From Winslowiella toletana (GTDB lineage Bacteria; Pseudomonadota; Gammaproteobacteria; Enterobacterales; Enterobacteriaceae), in contig NZ_CP134152.1 in the NCBI RefSeq assembly GCF_032164335.1, forward strand, positions 4,774,001 through 4,838,000: 64,000 nucleotides of DNA. The letters run 5' to 3'. Shown here piece after piece: positions 46,268 through 53,945 of this stretch (positions are counted from its first letter, which is position 1; every line of letters begins with the position of its first letter). Under the pieces are notes generated by a model, which was given only the letters and a program-made list of their open reading frames with translations, ran no database searches and had not been told where the DNA came from. Position numbers and translations under genes: made by a program.

Positions 46268-46659
46268 ATGATGATGATCTGGCTGCCTTTTTTCTTATCA
46301 GCGTGCAAACAGAGAGTCATGATAATGACAAGCTCATTTCATCACGCCAACTCAATGAGCATACCTGGCTTTATGTCATCGAGTATGGAAGCGGTGGCGC
46401 CACAGTGCCTTTTATTTATCGTTATTATCTTGCCGATAATTGTCATATGTTCCTTTTGGATCAATGCAGCCATTCTTTGCAATCGCCCATCATCATTCAG
46501 GCATTTGCCTATAATTTTGCGCGAATAACCGACTGTCATCACGATTTGCGATCGCCAGAGTTATGCCGGTTTACCGAACTCTGTAGATTAATGAAACAGT
46601 GTTTCATTAATCTACCCAGCAAAGGATCAGCATGTATACTCGTCTTGTGTTACCTGTAA
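46268..46659 (+). pseudogene. Broken small lipoprotein gene (probable frameshift)
   Basis: Read from ATG 46268, one frame gives a short signal MMMIWLPFFLSAC with a lipobox (LSAC). It then loses sense. Beginning at about 46306, the frame one base back reads TESHDNDKLISSRQ, then HTWLYVIEYGSGGATVPFIYRYYLADN and runs to a stop at 46659. The GSGGATVPFIYRYYL segment looks like the core of a class of small enterobacterial lipoproteins. One base lost from the AAA run at 46307-46309 would explain the split. The 3' end runs 28 bases into the GH28 gene, so the tail may be damaged as well. Could also be an assembly error. Confidence 0.5.
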
Positions 46660-48005
46660 TGGCTTCCTGCCTGTTCGCCACTGCTGGCGTCGCTTCTGCC
46701 GCCTCGTCCGTCAAATTTCCGGATAAGGTCTGTGATGTCACGCAATACGGTGCTGAAGGCCATCGATTACAAATTGCGTTAAATACCGACTCTTTCCAGA
46801 AAGCGATAGATGATTGTGCAGCTGCCGGCGGCGGTACGGTGCAGGTTCCTGCCGGGAACTATCTGGTTAATCCGCTATTTTTGAAGAGTAATATCCGACT
46901 GAATCTGGCAAAAAATGCCACTATTGTCGCCTCCACTGAGGTTAGCGCGTATCGGGCCAGTCAAAAAAATAAGCATGGCGAAGCCGAAAATAAGTGGCTG
47001 CCATTTATCAGTATTGCCGACGTCAGCAACGTCGCCATTACCGGTGAAGGCACCATTGATGGCCAGGGTGCCGTATGGTGGGAAAGATGGCGTGAGAACA
47101 TCCGCGCAACCGGCAAAAAAGGCGGTACCGATCGTCCGCGCCTGATTTATATGACCCGCGCTGATAACGTACTGGTAGACGGCGTTCACCTGACTCATTC
47201 GCCAAGTTTTCACGTTGTGATGCGTAATTCCAGTAATATCGATATCAATAACACCAGAATCACTTCACCCTGGCATGCACCTAACACCGATGCCATTGAT
47301 CCGATTGACAGCCGAAATATCCGCATCACTAATAACTACATTGACTGCAACGATGACCATATTGCGATCAAAGCAGAGAAACCCTCAGCGCGTTACCCTG
47401 ATGGCGCGGTAGATAATATTTATATCGCCAATAACACCTTATTACAGGGGCGGGGCATCTCCATCGGCAGTGAGACTTCCGGTGGCGTCAATAACGTGCT
47501 GGTGGAAAATAATCGGTTTATTGGCTCGATGTATGGCATCCGCATTAAAACGCCGCGCGGTAAAGGCGGTGAAGTAAAGAATATCGTATACCGCAATACC
47601 ACCATGGTTGATGTCGAAGTGCCGCTGGTCTTTTCTGGCTATTATAAGGCGGCGCCTATCGTGCAAGCCGAAGTAGACAAAATGGTGGCCGAGGGTGGAT
47701 TTACCCTCGGTGAGCAAATCTATCCACCGGACAGTGATGCAAAACAGCCATTTGATGCGGTTAAAACGCCTCACTTCAGCAATATTACCGTATCAAATCT
47801 GACCTCCACCGGTAACAGTAAAGCGGCGGCCTTTATTATCGGTGTGCCGGAAGCGCCACTGAGTGGTTTTACTTTTGAAAATGTCCGTATTGATGCCAAC
47901 GAAGGCGTGCGGGTGCGCAATGCTGAATTAACTACCAGCGGGTTAACTCTTAATATCAAACAAGGCCCGGATATGATTCTCGATAAGGGCGCAGTGATTG
48001 ATTAA
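46632..48005 (+). CDS. Secreted glycoside hydrolase family 28 (polygalacturonase-like)
   Basis: Likely acts on pectin or a related polyuronide in the periplasm or outside the cell. It has 457 residues with a signal peptide ending in GVASAA. The right-handed beta helix starts with VCDVTQYGAEG. Catalytic-type motifs are PNTDAID (usually NTDG), CNDDHIAIK (aspartate pair) and RIKTPRG. The third GH28 signature, normally GHG, reads GRGISIGSE. An AAAGGA site precedes the ATG. It stands alone between the broken lipoprotein gene and ydeP, and suggests a plant-associated host. Confidence 0.86.
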   Translation: MYTRLVLPVMASCLFATAGVASAASSVKFPDKVCDVTQYGAEGHRLQIALNTDSFQKAIDDCAAAGGGTVQVPAGNYLVNPLFLKSNIRLNLAKNATIVASTEVSAYRASQKNKHGEAENKWLPFISIADVSNVAITGEGTIDGQGAVWWERWRENIRATGKKGGTDRPRLIYMTRADNVLVDGVHLTHSPSFHVVMRNSSNIDINNTRITSPWHAPNTDAIDPIDSRNIRITNNYIDCNDDHIAIKAEKPSARYPDGAVDNIYIANNTLLQGRGISIGSETSGGVNNVLVENNRFIGSMYGIRIKTPRGKGGEVKNIVYRNTTMVDVEVPLVFSGYYKAAPIVQAEVDKMVAEGGFTLGEQIYPPDSDAKQPFDAVKTPHFSNITVSNLTSTGNSKAAAFIIGVPEAPLSGFTFENVRIDANEGVRVRNAELTTSGLTLNIKQGPDMILDKGAVID

Positions 48006-48194: not shown

Positions 48195-50474
48195 ATGATA
48201 AAAAAAAGACGCGCAGTTCCGGGAATTCACTCGTATGACGGCCCCGCCGGTGGCTGGGGCGCGCTGAAAGCGACGGCAATCTCCGTGCGCACACAAATGG
48301 ATGCGCTGGAAGCGCCGGGAACGCTGTTACGCACCAATCAACCAGACGGCTTCGACTGCCCCGGTTGTGCCTGGCCAGACAAAGAGCACCACTCGACATT
48401 CCAGTTTTGTGAAAACGGTGCGAAAGCGGTGACCTGGGAAGCGACCAGCAAACGCGTAACGCCGGAGTTTCTGGCGCAGAACACCGTCAGCTCACTGTTG
48501 CAGAAAACAGATTATGAATTAGAGGGTTATGGCCGCCTGACGCATCCACTGGCCTATGATCCTGATACCGATACCCTGCGCGTGGTCGAGTGGGACGAGG
48601 CTTTCAACCGTATCGGTGAAATTCTGCGTAATATGCCGTCGCCGGACCAGGTGGAGTTTTATACCTCTGGCCGTGCATCCAATGAAGCTGCGTGGCTGTT
48701 TCAGCTGTTCGCCCGCGAATACGGCACCAATAACTTTCCCGACTGCTCCAATATGTGCCACGAAGCCACCAGTGTTGGACTACCGCAGTCGATTGGCATT
48801 GGCAAAGGCACCGTATCGCTGGATGACTTCGACGATGCAGAGCTGGTTATCTCAATCGGGCATAATCCGGGCACCAACCATCCACGTATGATGGGCACCC
48901 TGCATGAACTGGCCCGACGCAACGTGCCCATCATCGTGTTTAACCCGCTGCGCGAGCGCGCACTCGAACGTTTTGCCGACCCGCAGAACGTGATTGAGAT
49001 GGCAACCTACAGTTCAACGGATATCGCCTCGACCTACTTTCAGGTCAAAGCCGGTGGCGACGCCGCCGCTCTGAAAGGAATAATGAAGGCGCTGTTGGTA
49101 CTTGATGATGAACAGGGCAATGTTATCGATCGTGATTTTATCGCGGAACATACGCAAGGCTTTGATCTCTCAGTTGCCGATCTGTCCGCTACCGACTGGC
49201 AGGATATCGAGAATGAGTCCGGGCTGACGCGCCAGCAGCTTACACAAGTCGCGGTCGCCTATGCTAAATCCAACGCAACTATCGTGACATATGGCATGGG
49301 CGTAACCCAACATAATAAAGGCACTGCAACCGTGCGCTTAATTGCCGACCTGCTGTTAATGCGTGGGAATTTTGGCAAGCCGGGTGCCGGGATTTGTCCG
49401 CTGCGCGGCCATTCCAATGTGCAGGGCAACAGAACCGTCGGCATTACCGAGAAACCTTCAAAAGCCTTTTTGGCACAGTTGGAAAAGGTATTTGGATTTG
49501 CTCCTCCAGAGCAGCATGGGCACGACGCGGTCAGAGCGATGCAGTCAATGGTCGACGGCACGTCGAAGGCGCTGATTTGTCTTGGCGGCAATTTCGCCGT
49601 CGCCTTACCCGACCCCGAAAAATGTTTTCCGGCAATGAAAGCGCTGGATTTAAGTGTCCATATCGGTACCAAACTTAATCGTTCGCATTTACTGGTTGCC
49701 AAAGAGAGCTATATTCTGCCTTGTCTGGGCCGCACTGAGCTTGATACGCAGGCCACTGGTCGGCAGGCAATAACCGTGGAAGACTCGATGTCGATGGTGC
49801 ATGCTTCCTCAGGCAAACTTAAGCCGGCTTCGCCGCTGTTGCGCTCGGAACCGGCAATTGTCGCCGGCATGGCCAGCGCGGTGTTACCAGACACTAAAGT
49901 ACCCTGGGCGGAACTGATAGCGGATTACAGCAAGATTCGCGACCTGATTGAGAAAACCATTCCGGGTTTTGACAACTATAACCAGCGCATCGCTATCCCG
50001 GGTGGATTTCGCATGCCACTGCCTCCTACCGAACTTAAGTGGCCAACCGCCTCAGGCAAAGCCATGTTCTCAGTGTTCAACGGGGTTCATGAGGATGCCG
50101 ATGTGCAGGGTGACGACGTGCTACGCCTTATTACGCTGCGCAGCCACGACCAGTACAACACCACGGTGTATGCGATGGACGATCGTTATCGTGGCGTATT
50201 TGGCCGGCGCGATATCCTGTTTATGAACGATCTCGATCTCGATAAACGCGGGCTGGAGCATGGCGATTTAGTGGATATAGAGACCGTGGCATCCGGAAGA
50301 AAGTTGCGCCTGGAAAATATCACGGTTATTGCTTACAACATCGCCCCCGGCTCGGTTGGCGCTTACTATCCTGAAGCCAACATTCTGGTTCCGCTTGACT
50401 ATATTGACAAAGAAAGCGGAACACCATCATATAAATCAGTCCCGGTACGAGTGATGCATTCCGCATCCGTTTAG
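48195..50474 (+). CDS. ydeP: FdhF/YdeP family molybdopterin oxidoreductase
   Basis: Predicted molybdopterin-dependent oxidoreductase related to formate dehydrogenase. It has 759 residues, equal to E. coli YdeP, a gene that EvgA switches on and that contributes to acid resistance there. The N-terminal DGFDCPGCAWPDKEH replaces the usual iron-sulfur cysteine set. Pterin-binding segments are SGRASNEAAWLFQL, CSNMCHEATS, GHNPGTNHPRM, RGNFGKPGAGICPLRGHSNVQG and the C-terminal domain LRSHDQYNTTVYAMDDRYRG. There is no signal peptide. ATG 48195 is preceded by AGGAG; a frame from 48147 is possible but lacks a site. Substrate unknown. Confidence 0.9.
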   Translation: MIKKRRAVPGIHSYDGPAGGWGALKATAISVRTQMDALEAPGTLLRTNQPDGFDCPGCAWPDKEHHSTFQFCENGAKAVTWEATSKRVTPEFLAQNTVSSLLQKTDYELEGYGRLTHPLAYDPDTDTLRVVEWDEAFNRIGEILRNMPSPDQVEFYTSGRASNEAAWLFQLFAREYGTNNFPDCSNMCHEATSVGLPQSIGIGKGTVSLDDFDDAELVISIGHNPGTNHPRMMGTLHELARRNVPIIVFNPLRERALERFADPQNVIEMATYSSTDIASTYFQVKAGGDAAALKGIMKALLVLDDEQGNVIDRDFIAEHTQGFDLSVADLSATDWQDIENESGLTRQQLTQVAVAYAKSNATIVTYGMGVTQHNKGTATVRLIADLLLMRGNFGKPGAGICPLRGHSNVQGNRTVGITEKPSKAFLAQLEKVFGFAPPEQHGHDAVRAMQSMVDGTSKALICLGGNFAVALPDPEKCFPAMKALDLSVHIGTKLNRSHLLVAKESYILPCLGRTELDTQATGRQAITVEDSMSMVHASSGKLKPASPLLRSEPAIVAGMASAVLPDTKVPWAELIADYSKIRDLIEKTIPGFDNYNQRIAIPGGFRMPLPPTELKWPTASGKAMFSVFNGVHEDADVQGDDVLRLITLRSHDQYNTTVYAMDDRYRGVFGRRDILFMNDLDLDKRGLEHGDLVDIETVASGRKLRLENITVIAYNIAPGSVGAYYPEANILVPLDYIDKESGTPSYKSVPVRVMHSASV

Positions 50475-50492
50475 CTGACAGCCAATAAAACC

Positions 50493-50520
50493 AAGCCCGA
50501 GTCATTACGGGCTTTTTTTT
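50493..50520 (+). terminator. Intrinsic terminator of ydeP
   Basis: AAGCCCG (50493-50499) pairs with CGGGCTT (50508-50514) around an eight-base loop, followed by T residues to 50520. Confidence 0.88.
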
Positions 50521-50528
50521 ATGCTCAA

Positions 50529-51053
50529 TTAGCTAAAACTATTAAAATAGACAAAGGAAACCTTCGACAGTGTTACGAACATAATATCGTCTTTGATTCC
50601 ATATTTTTTCTTTAAAAAATACTTGGTGTTAATGACTGTCTTTTCCTGCACACCAAGAAATGCAGAAATCATGCTCGCGCTCCATTTCTTATAATACAAA
50701 AATAAAAACAACTTTTCAGTCTGAGACAGCATCACTTCTCTAAGAAACAAACCTTGCTTAGCCGATAAATTAAAGAACAGCTGATAAATACCGGACAGTG
50801 AGGTATGAAGACTAATCAGAATAATACGACCACCAATATTGATGGGACTGTGATGCTGATGTGTAAAAATGACAATAATTTCACTCTCATCTTCGAGAGA
50901 CTTACTGACTAATGATTCCAGTTGCTCATAATATTGGTCAGTAAAACATATCCTTTTTGAAAAGCCTGACTTACCCCTGTCATTTTTTAAATAAGACACG
51001 ACTGAAGAAATAGAAAATTTCAGCAAGCTGTCGTTCGAATGGACGCTATACAT
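50529..51053 (-). CDS. Orphan LuxR-type regulator 1
   Basis: It has 174 residues. The first about 105 residues match no sensing domain I know. The C-terminal 60 residues look like a LuxR/GerE helix-turn-helix: LSQTEKLFLFLYYKKWSASMISAFLGVQEKTV, followed by a KYFLKKKYGI recognition-helix-like stretch. No receiver aspartate set is seen. The gene is AT-rich and uses rare codons, unlike ydeP next door, with which it converges. ATG 51053 has a CGGGGT site. A 13-base inverted repeat lies about 60 bases upstream. Target unknown. Confidence 0.68.
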   Translation of the reverse strand: MYSVHSNDSLLKFSISSVVSYLKNDRGKSGFSKRICFTDQYYEQLESLVSKSLEDESEIIVIFTHQHHSPINIGGRIILISLHTSLSGIYQLFFNLSAKQGLFLREVMLSQTEKLFLFLYYKKWSASMISAFLGVQEKTVINTKYFLKKKYGIKDDIMFVTLSKVSFVYFNSFS

Positions 51054-51111
51054 TTCAGTACCCCGAATAACGTAAGCTGATCCATTCTGGATATTGATAA
51101 CTTTCCGGAAG

Positions 51112-51124
51112 TTAAGATTCTTAA
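51112..51124. promoter_or_regulatory. Inverted repeat upstream of LuxR-type regulator 1
   Basis: TTAAGA-T-TCTTAA, a perfect inverted repeat 59-71 bases before the regulator start and inside the spacer after the 39-codon ORF. It could be an operator, possibly for autoregulation. It is shorter than an RcsAB box, although the half-site TAAGA is shared. Confidence 0.35.
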
Positions 51125-51165
51125 TTAATCGCCAAAAATCAATCGATATTAATTTCAGAAGATAA

Positions 51166-51285
51166 TTATTTCTTCTTTTTGTAGATAATTTTAGTTCTTG
51201 ATGAGCGACTCAAATGCTTATAAAAACAAAAAATAATCACAAACAACAATAAAAAAACGATCAATATTAAGCCCGGTGTACTCAT
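51166..51285 (-). CDS. Possible 39-residue single-span membrane protein
   Basis: A short open frame from ATG 51285 to TAA 51166. It starts MSTPG, then has a strongly hydrophobic stretch (about residues 6-22, LILIVFLLLFVIIFCFY), and ends in a basic tail with SRSSR and YKKKK. A GGGGGA site lies nine bases upstream of the ATG. This layout is typical of small single-span inner-membrane proteins. It precedes LuxR-type regulator 1 on the same strand, 112 bases away. Similarity is unknown, and chance is possible in AT-rich DNA. Confidence 0.45.
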   Translation of the reverse strand: MSTPGLILIVFLLLFVIIFCFYKHLSRSSRTKIIYKKKK

Positions 51286-51725
51286 GATACTTTCCCCCGA
51301 TATGGCCAGAGAGAGAAATATATTTAATTATTAACCATTGTTCAACCCTAAATGATTGGTTTGCCAGGTTCTCAGGCATAAATAAGACAATCCTTAAAAT
51401 GACTGTTCATTAAATCTTAATTATCATTCCTGGTCTGAAATGAGAATACCAAAAAAAGCCTTAAATTTCATAATCAAATGGAGTTTTATGCAGTAATACT
51501 GCATCTGAAATATGAAATTATTAATCTATCGACATCTGTGCAACGTGTTTAATCCCGCATAATAGCTTTTCCTTTCAATCTGGCAGGATCGGCAGCGCTC
51601 TGTGTACCTGTCAGCGATGGAAAAACCTGCGCCAGCTCACTACTGGTGGCTAATTCTGTTCATTCCGTTTCCTTCTGTCAGGTTCAGTGCTTAAATCATT
51701 TATCGACCCTATTTCAGGAGATAGC
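51286..51725. other. AT-rich spacer, divergent promoter region
   Basis: About 440 bases with no convincing gene. It separates the minus-strand 39-codon ORF and regulator 1 from the plus-strand SRPBCC-like gene, so it should hold promoters in both directions. CATAAT near 51558-51563 is a possible -10 box for the plus strand. No long repeat, hairpin terminator or known operator was recognised. Confidence 0.4.
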
Positions 51726-52121
51726 ATGCTGCCATCACGCTCGATCAGCCTGACCATTCCACGCAACTGGATGGATCTTTATGAAACCATCTGGAAACCT
51801 GAATATTTCTCAAAGTGGGCCTCTGGCCTGAGCCACGCACCATTAGTTCAGGAAGGACATTACTGGAAAGCTAAAGGTCCGGAAGGCACGATAAAAATTC
51901 GCTTTACCGGATACAATGCATTAGGTGTGATGGATCACTACGTAGATACCGGCTTTGGTAAAGAGATTTATATACCGATGCGCATTATCGCCAATCAGGA
52001 AGGGGCTGAAGTTGTCGTCACCATTTTCCGCCAACCTTTGATGTCAGATGAGAAATTTGAACACGATATTGCGTGGATAAAACGCGACCTGCAAACCTTA
52101 CATGCGCTAATGACTTCCTGA
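51726..52121 (+). CDS. SRPBCC-like (polyketide cyclase/START-fold) protein
   Basis: It has 131 residues and is cytoplasmic. The sequence follows the START/SRPBCC pattern: SRSISLTIPRNWMDLYETIWKPEYFSKWASGL at the N-terminus, a central beta region (EGTIKIRFTGYNALGVMDHYV), and a long C-terminal helix (DEKFEHDIAWIKRDLQTLHALM). Such proteins bind small hydrophobic ligands. ATG 51726 has an AGGAG site eight bases upstream; a frame from 51687 lacks one. It is convergent with LuxR-type regulator 2 with six bases between stops. Ligand unknown. Confidence 0.68.
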   Translation: MLPSRSISLTIPRNWMDLYETIWKPEYFSKWASGLSHAPLVQEGHYWKAKGPEGTIKIRFTGYNALGVMDHYVDTGFGKEIYIPMRIIANQEGAEVVVTIFRQPLMSDEKFEHDIAWIKRDLQTLHALMTS

Positions 52122-52127
52122 CAGCGC

Positions 52128-52847
52128 CTATCTGGTATTCTTCCATACCAAAGGTGGCATGATTTTGTCAGTACGAATCTCTGCCACCTCTTTCTCTTTA
52201 GGCCGACAGCGCAGCATGGTTACGATCATTCTTAACTCATCAATTACCGCAAACAGATCGGCGATGTCATGCCTGCTATGAATCTGCAAACGCGTCAGTG
52301 CGTTCAGTTTATGTGCGTATACCGTTTTATCGGTAATACCCAGCCGTTGCCCCACCTGCTCTGCACTGTATGACCATGAAAGCATTAATAATATTTTCAA
52401 CTGACGATCGGAAAGCATCACATCTGCACAATGATCATTCTGCAGCTGCCCGCGTAACCCCATCAGTTCAGTGGTAAGCAGCCAGGATAACTCAACCAGC
52501 GGCGTCTTGAGGGATATGACATTAACGGTGGTAAAATACTGCATAAATGCAGAAAAAATCGGAAGGAGTTTGCAGGTAATAATTAACTGGCGAACATCCG
52601 GATAATTTCGCTGATGGGTAAAGATGCGTTGAAGAACTCCGCCTAACGGCATATTTTCATGAAATAAATAGACAACCAGCTTTGGCCGATATTTTTCACA
52701 ATGGAAAACAATGTCATGCATATCTTCCACTGCCAACACTTTCAACTTTACCGGTAAATGATTCAAAACTTCACATAACCCTGCTGCTGCCAGGGCATCT
52801 GAAGAAAAAAAGATGATATCATGCTTGTGTGTTTTCATTCCGCTCAT
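52128..52847 (-). CDS. Orphan LuxR-type regulator 2
   Basis: It has 239 residues. The N-terminal part (about 8-130) resembles a receiver-like fold: DIIFFSSDALAAAGLCEVLNHL, then LVVYLFHENMPLGGVLQRI, then LIITCKLLP, VNVISLKTPL. The usual aspartate position reads VVYLFHENM, so phosphorylation is unlikely. The C-terminal helix-turn-helix LSDRQLKILLMLSWSYSAEQVGQRLGITDKTVYAHKLNAL is a clear LuxR/GerE type (residues about 145-184). It is similar in layout to RcsA-like and EvgA-like regulators. ATG 52847 has AGGT upstream. Promoter region to the right is AT-rich. Confidence 0.78.
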   Translation of the reverse strand: MSGMKTHKHDIIFFSSDALAAAGLCEVLNHLPVKLKVLAVEDMHDIVFHCEKYRPKLVVYLFHENMPLGGVLQRIFTHQRNYPDVRQLIITCKLLPIFSAFMQYFTTVNVISLKTPLVELSWLLTTELMGLRGQLQNDHCADVMLSDRQLKILLMLSWSYSAEQVGQRLGITDKTVYAHKLNALTRLQIHSRHDIADLFAVIDELRMIVTMLRCRPKEKEVAEIRTDKIMPPLVWKNTR

Positions 52848-53327
52848 TAATACCTGTGTATCATCTTGATTAGACGCAAGAAAAAAAAGCCACTTTGCAA
52901 TTGGCCCCAGATCAAATATTTATTATCAACAGATAAAATAATTACGTATTTATCTTTCTCATCTGCAAGCGATGATAAATACCGCACGTTATGTGCTATA
53001 TAATTAACGCGACACTTTTCAACAGAATCTAAATGGTTTCATAAATATTTTATAAATTTATGCAGCGATACCCTCGCCATCAGTGGCATATTATCTCTTG
53101 CCGATGATCAGCTTGCAGAGACACAGACATCCGGATTTAAGCGATCTGCTAATAAATTAAACTAATAGTGCCACTGCAAAGATTTTTATATAACCTGTTG
53201 TTAAATATGCTATAAACAGCACATCATCATCAGTTAAATTAATCCTGACCGATTACCCTTAGAAAATCTCAGTGGTCTTCCGTGCATTAAGCACTTAGTC
53301 TTGCCGGCGATTTTTCAGGAGTTGCCC
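52848..53327. other. AT-rich spacer between LuxR-type regulator 2 and yicG
   Basis: About 480 bases without a convincing gene. It has an inverted repeat TTATC-AACA-GATAA (52923-52936), 76-89 bases before regulator 2, which may be a binding site. Nearer yicG it has several short A/T runs and one small stem GTGC-ATTAA-GCAC (53282-53294). It marks the right edge of the accessory stretch; base composition returns to normal inside yicG. Confidence 0.4.
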
Positions 53328-53945
53328 ATGTTACTTACCGTCCTCTATATCATTGGTATTACTGCAGAAGCGATGACCGGCGCATTGGCTGCAGGACGTC
53401 GTAAAATGGATATGTTTGGCGTAATTATCATCGCGTCTGTTACCGCTATTGGTGGTGGATCGGTGCGCGATATGCTGCTTGGCCATTACCCCCTTGGCTG
53501 GGTTAAACATCCGGAATACATCATGATTGTTGCTGCTGCCGCGGTAGTCACTACCGTGGTTGCTCCACTGATGACACACCTGCGCAAAGTCTTTCTGGTG
53601 CTTGATGCGTTAGGTCTGGTGGTGTTTTCAATTATTGGTACTAAAGTGGCGCTAGATATGGGGCATGCATCGATCATTGCGGCTATCAGCGCGGTTATCA
53701 CCGGCGTATTTGGTGGCGTATTACGCGATATGTTCTGTAACCGCATACCGTTGGTGTTTCAGAAAGAGCTTTACGCCGGTATTGCCTTCGCCTCCAGCTG
53801 GCTTTACATCTTGCTGCTGAAAACTCCTCTGTCACATGAGTTCATCATCATTATTACTCTGCTGGCTGGCTTTATTGCCCGATTGCTGGCGCTGCGCTTC
53901 AAGCTGGGACTGCCAATCTTTAACTATCCGCACCCTGAACATTAA
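53328..53945 (+). CDS. yicG: Trimeric intracellular cation channel-like protein YicG
   Basis: Inner-membrane protein of the UPF0126/TRIC family, two repeats of three membrane segments plus one. It has 205 residues, the E. coli length. Each repeat carries the glycine kink signature: [15 protein letters not shown] (about residue 50) and [14 protein letters not shown] (about 135). ATG 53328 has AGGAG seven bases upstream, while a frame from 53301 lacks one. In E. coli it also lies near ligB. Confidence 0.93.

Follow-up and report, generated by a model that had tools for sequence, protein, structure and literature searches.

Two LuxR-type regulators with predicted degenerate receivers in a conserved yicG neighbourhood of Winslowiella toletana

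Introduction

RcsA, BglJ and YjjQ of Escherichia coli are proteins of about 207-241 aa in which a LuxR-type DNA-binding domain follows a receiver-like N-terminus, and none of the three is known to have a usable phospho-site. The same order of the two domains is found in RcsB, NarL, EvgA and UvrY. According to the available text of PMC5651002, RcsB has RcsA, BglJ, GadE, MatA, DctR and others as partners, which all seem to be repressed by H-NS; phosphorylation of RcsB is not needed for BglJ, GadE and MatA to act, but it is for RcsA.

In this study, we analysed a window of 64,000 nucleotides from Winslowiella toletana (contig NZ_CP134152.1, positions 4,774,001 to 4,838,000), which encodes two regulators with this domain order, here named R1 and R2. 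Their locus adjoins yicG, whereas in E. coli rcsA lies beside fliR and bglJ lies in yjjQ-bglJ. Unlike RcsB, NarL, EvgA and UvrY, both proteins appear to have lost the acidic pair, R2 has no phospho-Asp, and the receiver of R1 is shortened and lacks the Lys. Their receiver halves are not significantly similar to those of RcsA, BglJ and YjjQ either, and NCBIfam matches to such regulators are far below cut-off. The locus is real and conserved, contains two atypical regulators and was earlier mis-assigned to ydeP; its anatomy, the degenerate receivers, its recurrence and its independence from ydeP are shown below. Two atypical response-regulator families are thereby added, in which the phosphorylation residues were lost in different ways, in one case with an invariant replacement motif; ydeP is removed from the proposed unit, and the conserved gene neighbourhood provides a setting in which to test what R1 and R2 control.

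Results

Locus organization and base composition

In the ORF list of the window, two LuxR-type regulators, a 39-aa membrane ORF and an SRPBCC protein are located between ydeP and yicG, and every ORF was found at the coordinates given beforehand. The neighbouring ydeP-type oxidoreductase gene (48195..50474, plus strand; identified with NCBIfam) lies outside the recurring group; its start is an ATG chosen by us, the ORF list beginning at TTG 48147. It converges with R1 across a terminator-like hairpin (50493..50514, consensus match). R1 (50529..51053, minus strand) is a 174-aa LuxR-type regulator with a predicted shortened, degenerate receiver, and the 39-aa micro-ORF upstream of it on the same strand (51166..51285, minus) is of the single-TM type with a basic tail. 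SRP, the putative SRPBCC/START-fold protein (51726..52121, plus), is followed by R2 (52128..52847, minus), a 239-aa LuxR-type regulator whose predicted pseudo-receiver carries FHENM in the phospho-Asp region. A 32-bp block invariant in four species (52992..53023), a candidate promoter/operator, is situated 145-176 bp upstream of R2. Divergent from R2 lies its constant neighbour yicG (53328..53945, plus), identified by Pfam and neighbourhood comparison.

The GC content is 0.345 in R1, 0.348 in the R1-SRP gap, 0.358 in the R2-yicG gap, 0.433 in R2 and 0.46 in SRP, which is only mildly AT-rich, compared to 0.519 for the window. The preliminary description of an AT-rich block with two LuxR-type regulators, a membrane ORF and a START-fold protein was thus confirmed in its ORFs and in its composition (GC 0.345-0.46). 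No RNA family reached the gathering threshold in 50400-53400, and a promoter scan was uninformative (8 sites versus 9.7 expected). A tRNA-linked island was rejected, no tRNA having been found in the window. A plasmid origin was likewise rejected, R1 having matched nothing on plasmids at E<=0.01 and R2 a single entry (25.7%), as was a defence system, for which PADLOC gave only weak matches (E 0.006) that were taken as chance. A glycoside hydrolase family 28 gene of the polygalacturonase type (Pfam) is located between yicC and ydeP in the window (46632-48005) and is also present in the related genome G023.

The regulators R1 and R2

A GerE domain was not detected in R1 with Pfam at E<=1, nor did R1 match any NCBIfam model. 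Its putative assignment as LuxR-type is based on two remote homologues, L080 and L077, which score above the Pfam GerE cut-off, and on profile alignment; the home-made HTH profile that detects R1 itself contains R1. In a profile alignment with four canonical E. coli receivers, its N-terminal half scored 31.1 over 102 columns, while 60 column shuffles reached a maximum of 13.5 and the hhalign probability was modest (57%). Asp39 of R1 is aligned with RcsB Asp56, the acidic pair and the Lys are lost at the aligned positions, and an Asp is found one position after the lost pair. The N-terminal half, which the preliminary description could match to no sensor, is therefore best read as a shortened receiver. 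Over its full length R1 aligned to canonical response regulators with 98.4%, with one mis-picked row in the R1 set. The AlphaFold model was too poor for use (mean pLDDT 47.7), and the best PDB sequence match was PdeL (E 0.0097; 0.13 for the matched stretch alone). Between the window and G023, the dN/dS of R1 is 0.044.

The C-terminal domain of R2 is a GerE domain (PF00196, 39.7 bits versus a cut-off of 23.5, E 3.7e-10). The N-terminal half aligned to the four canonical receivers with a score of 35.1 over 84 columns (maximum of 60 column shuffles, 23.3; hhalign probability modest, 74%), and the full-length protein aligned to canonical response regulators with 97.2%. In these alignments the acidic pair and the phospho-Asp are lost and, as in R1, an Asp stands one position after the lost pair. 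His63, inside the FHENM motif, is aligned with RcsB Asp56, and this motif is invariant in six R2 sequences from three genera. All NCBIfam matches of R2 are far below cut-off: the top one is the two-component regulator PRK15369, and others are RcsA over residues 23-197 (26.0 bits versus 162) and BglJ over residues 109-197 (30.8 bits versus 176). Eleven PDB matches were listed for the R2 profile, the best stretch of each lying in the DNA-binding part. R2 has a dN/dS of 0.124 between the window and G023, and the values of R1, SRP and R2 between G019 and G042 range from 0.07 to 0.19.

The alignments identify R1 and R2 as predicted atypical response regulators, in which a receiver minus its phosphorylation residues is joined to a LuxR-type DNA-binding domain. 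The earlier view that neither receiver looks phosphorylatable hence stands. They were rejected as canonical phosphorylated response regulators, since neither has the acidic pair and R2 lacks the phospho-Asp and R1 the Lys, and as RcsA/BglJ equivalogs, since R2 scores below the curated NCBIfam cut-offs and R1 has no match.

Distant relatives of R1 (E<=1e-5) occur in 19 of 392 family genomes besides its own, some of them adjoining a speA-like ORF (named by eye). The R1-like regulators in L077, L078 and L079, from three other genera, adjoin a flagellin-like gene, likewise named by eye. Within genus g162, the R1 profile matched none of 61 genomes, a set that holds no positive control. A weak R1-like fragment with one internal stop (E 1.6e-4) is present in L014 of the congener G016 and was excluded from the R1 count.

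SRP and the micro-ORF

Family searches, which had been proposed earlier for the regulators and SRP, recovered the GerE domain of R2 but left R1 without a GerE or NCBIfam match and SRP without any Pfam or NCBIfam match at E<=1. By sequence, SRP matches the solved structure 2qpv (Atu1531) with an E of 1e-20. A structural model of SRP, of low confidence at a mean pLDDT of 59, matches 2qpv as well as many START/Bet v 1 chains. SRP is accordingly assigned as a predicted member of the SRPBCC/START superfamily with a helix-grip fold. Atu1531 is itself listed as uncharacterized, so that no function transfers to SRP; our search found no literature on it. The dN/dS of SRP is 0.054 between the window and G023.

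Counterparts of the micro-ORF are found on the same strand and at the same place in three other genomes. Its dN/dS gives a less clear picture than that of the other three genes, with 0.086 between G019 and G042 and 0.177 between the window and G019, but 0.744 between the window and G023.

Distribution and the yicG neighbourhood

At E<=1e-20, R2 is present in 4 of the 37 genomes of the genus, namely that of the window (G000), G023, G019 and G042; weaker LuxR-type matches, seen at E<=0.001 in 15 of 40 genomes including that of the window, did not enter this count. R1 is present in the same four, and all of them show the order R1, micro-ORF, SRP, R2, yicG. The idea that regulators and SRP recur together was thus supported, R1, SRP and R2 forming one locus in 4/4 genus carriers. 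The nearest named relative found was Winslowiella iniecta B120 (R2 83% identical), a species transferred from Erwinia according to the available text of PMC9712802. A literature search found no description of orphan LuxR pseudo-receiver regulators in Erwinia, and it is on this search that we base calling them undescribed.

Across 392 family genomes the R2 profile matched four, own included. G120 and G290 carry R2 adjoining yicG. In G368, a more distant match (2e-19) adjoins ORFs judged by eye to be of fimbrial type; this match and that in G444 (3e-15) were excluded from the carrier counts. The R2 profile matched 13 of 61 genomes of g162, the genus of G290 (12 strongly), and one of two genomes of the genus of G120. 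R2 adjoins yicG in all 17 carriers examined (the four congeneric ones, 12 from g162, and G120), which are not independent events because the genomes are related. SRP is located at the R2 locus in 16 of them, the exception being G120, so that the recurrence of regulator and SRP is borne out here too. SRP itself is present in 36/37 genomes of the genus, and yicG lies within about 8 kb of it in one (G043) of the 12 R2-negative genomes in which its surroundings were read. In G120, a gene for a DUF6933 protein (L100:10693-11424) is situated between R2 and yicC.

The arrangement SRP, immunity-like gene, flippase, R2, yicG is seen in two of the four genus carriers, G019 and G042. Their slot of about 2.4 kb between SRP and R2 encodes a PF01320 protein (Colicin_Pyocin immunity) and, at its full length of 496 aa, a MOP flippase, the Pfam families having been determined on the copies of G019 only. 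The PF01320 gene lies beside the flippase at L018:10933-11208 (the tested copy) and L019:8823-9098; by eye, no toxin gene was noticed among the listed ORFs. All 12 strong g162 carriers have the order SRP, 88-aa gene, half-size flippase, R2, yicG, with SRP and yicG each split in two pieces in L137. The 88-aa gene is present in 12/12 of them, cut to residues 1-57 in L132, and is called immunity-like because two of the 12 match the G019 PF01320 protein directly (22-23% identity); the G290 copy had no Pfam match at E<=0.05. The half-size MOP flippase, which comprises the N-terminal lobe (ORFs of 214-239 aa), is found in 12/12 genomes (L101:9478-10155 and 11 counterparts in L129-L139). Both middle genes are absent in the window and G023, where SRP and R2 end almost next to each other. 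In the window the stops of SRP and R2 are 7 bases apart (52121, 52128), and R1 and the micro-ORF lie on the other side of SRP.

Intergenic elements

For the 32-bp block in the R2-yicG gap (52992-53023), none of 20000 column permutations, which do not model local rate variation, reached 32, the largest run being 21. The block is the most promising candidate regulatory site, although neither G290 nor G120 shows it. Another invariant stretch, 28 bp long (53296-53323) and just before yicG, probably holds the yicG ribosome-binding site. The inverted repeat at 51112-51124 that had been pointed out earlier exists, but it is not conserved even in the closest species. With an RcsAB-box consensus and up to 3 mismatches, no intergenic match was found in the block. 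Its sole match (52221-52234, 3 mismatches) lies inside R2, and the two matches in the whole window are below the chance mean of 3.2. The half-sites of other RcsB partners vary, as stated in the available text of PMC5651002.

Discussion

On balance, we lean towards reading the block as this species' version of a yicG neighbourhood, in which R1 and R2 would be atypical regulators set by their expression and putative partners of RcsB, with ydeP as an incidental neighbour. SRP, the immunity-like gene, the flippase, R2 and yicG make up a neighbourhood that recurs in several lineages of the family, and the two middle genes would most simply have been lost in the window lineage. By analogy with BglJ and RcsA, R1 and R2 may need no phosphorylation of their own; their activity might depend on how strongly they are themselves expressed from this AT-rich DNA, which H-NS probably silences. 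For R2, and perhaps for R1, the most plausible partner would be RcsB, in the manner of BglJ and RcsA, and R2 may act on the R2-yicG intergenic region. It is the partner, the targets and the role of both proteins, the silencing by H-NS and the loss of the middle genes that we infer. RcsB is encoded in the genome and is 92% identical to that of E. coli. Profile alignments of the receivers with those of RcsA/BglJ/YjjQ were not significant (R2: score 21.4, 4%; R1: 23.0, 8%), nor was that of R1 with R2 (22.7, 9%), and the probabilities against canonical receivers were modest; the proposed partnering with RcsB is therefore an argument by analogy. Several further findings count against this model. 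Asp39 of R1 occupies the phospho-site, and an Asp follows the lost pair in both R1 and R2. The lack of an intergenic RcsAB box and the top match of R2 to PRK15369 rather than RcsA/BglJ count against RcsB, and the 32-bp block is missing from G290 and G120.

In the preliminary description, the block and ydeP had been proposed to form a transferred unit that responds to acid or stress, with ydeP under the control of one or both regulators. Such a unit would fit the AT-rich DNA, the position of R1 directly after ydeP in the window and G023, and the lack of R1 and R2 in 33/37 congeners. However, ydeP adjoins R1 in only 2/4 genus carriers (G000 and G023). In G019 and G042, that side of R1 is occupied by genes that by eye encode PTS-type proteins and a GntR-type regulator, and the ydeP copies, only 51% identical, are located elsewhere. 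Within the stretches read, not all of which reach yicC, ydeP is present at 2/17 R2 loci, and the 13-20 kb read at each of the 13 loci outside the genus gave no ydeP match. Conversely, ydeP-like matches (E<=1e-100) number 49 and occur in 36/37 genus genomes; among the 20 of these loci that were read, 18 have no LuxR-type ORF within 1.5 kb, and the two that do are those of the window and G023, as judged with a profile containing R1 and R2 themselves. In addition, ydeP and R1 converge across the terminator-like hairpin. The comparison of neighbourhoods that had been suggested thus shows, among the loci read, no co-location of ydeP and regulator beyond the two closest species. ydeP is an incidental neighbour and the locus is independent from it, which makes control of ydeP within a transferred unit very unlikely.

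Potentially, R1 and R2 could act as homodimers without RcsB and control local genes (SRP, yicG, their own promoters) or distant surface genes. The conserved 32-bp element, the missing intergenic RcsAB box and the fimbrial-type ORFs seen by eye beside the distant R2 relative in G368 are consistent with this; yet the atypical enterobacterial regulators named in the available text of PMC5651002 partner with RcsB, and we regard homodimers as possible, if rather unlikely. It is more doubtful still that the locus is a decaying relic, which lost its effector genes (immunity-like, flippase) and left the regulators behind. The close spacing of the SRP and R2 stops, where G019 and G042 have two genes in about 2.4 kb, points in this direction, whereas dN/dS values of 0.04-0.12 for R1, R2 and SRP between the window and G023 argue against decay to a degree that renders it improbable.

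Beyond the favoured reading of R1 and R2 as putative RcsB partners, it is tempting to speculate, at rather long odds, that the yicG neighbourhood is an unrecognised envelope/polysaccharide module. The FHENM pseudo-receiver family might control a MOP flippase, a lipid-binding protein of the SRPBCC type and an orphan protein resembling bacteriocin immunity proteins; in the window lineage, regulator and SRPBCC protein would have been retained and rewired, with R1 and a membrane micro-protein as new components. The flippase is half-size in one genus and would be under purifying selection there, its median dN/dS being 0.077 across 33 pairs in the usable range.
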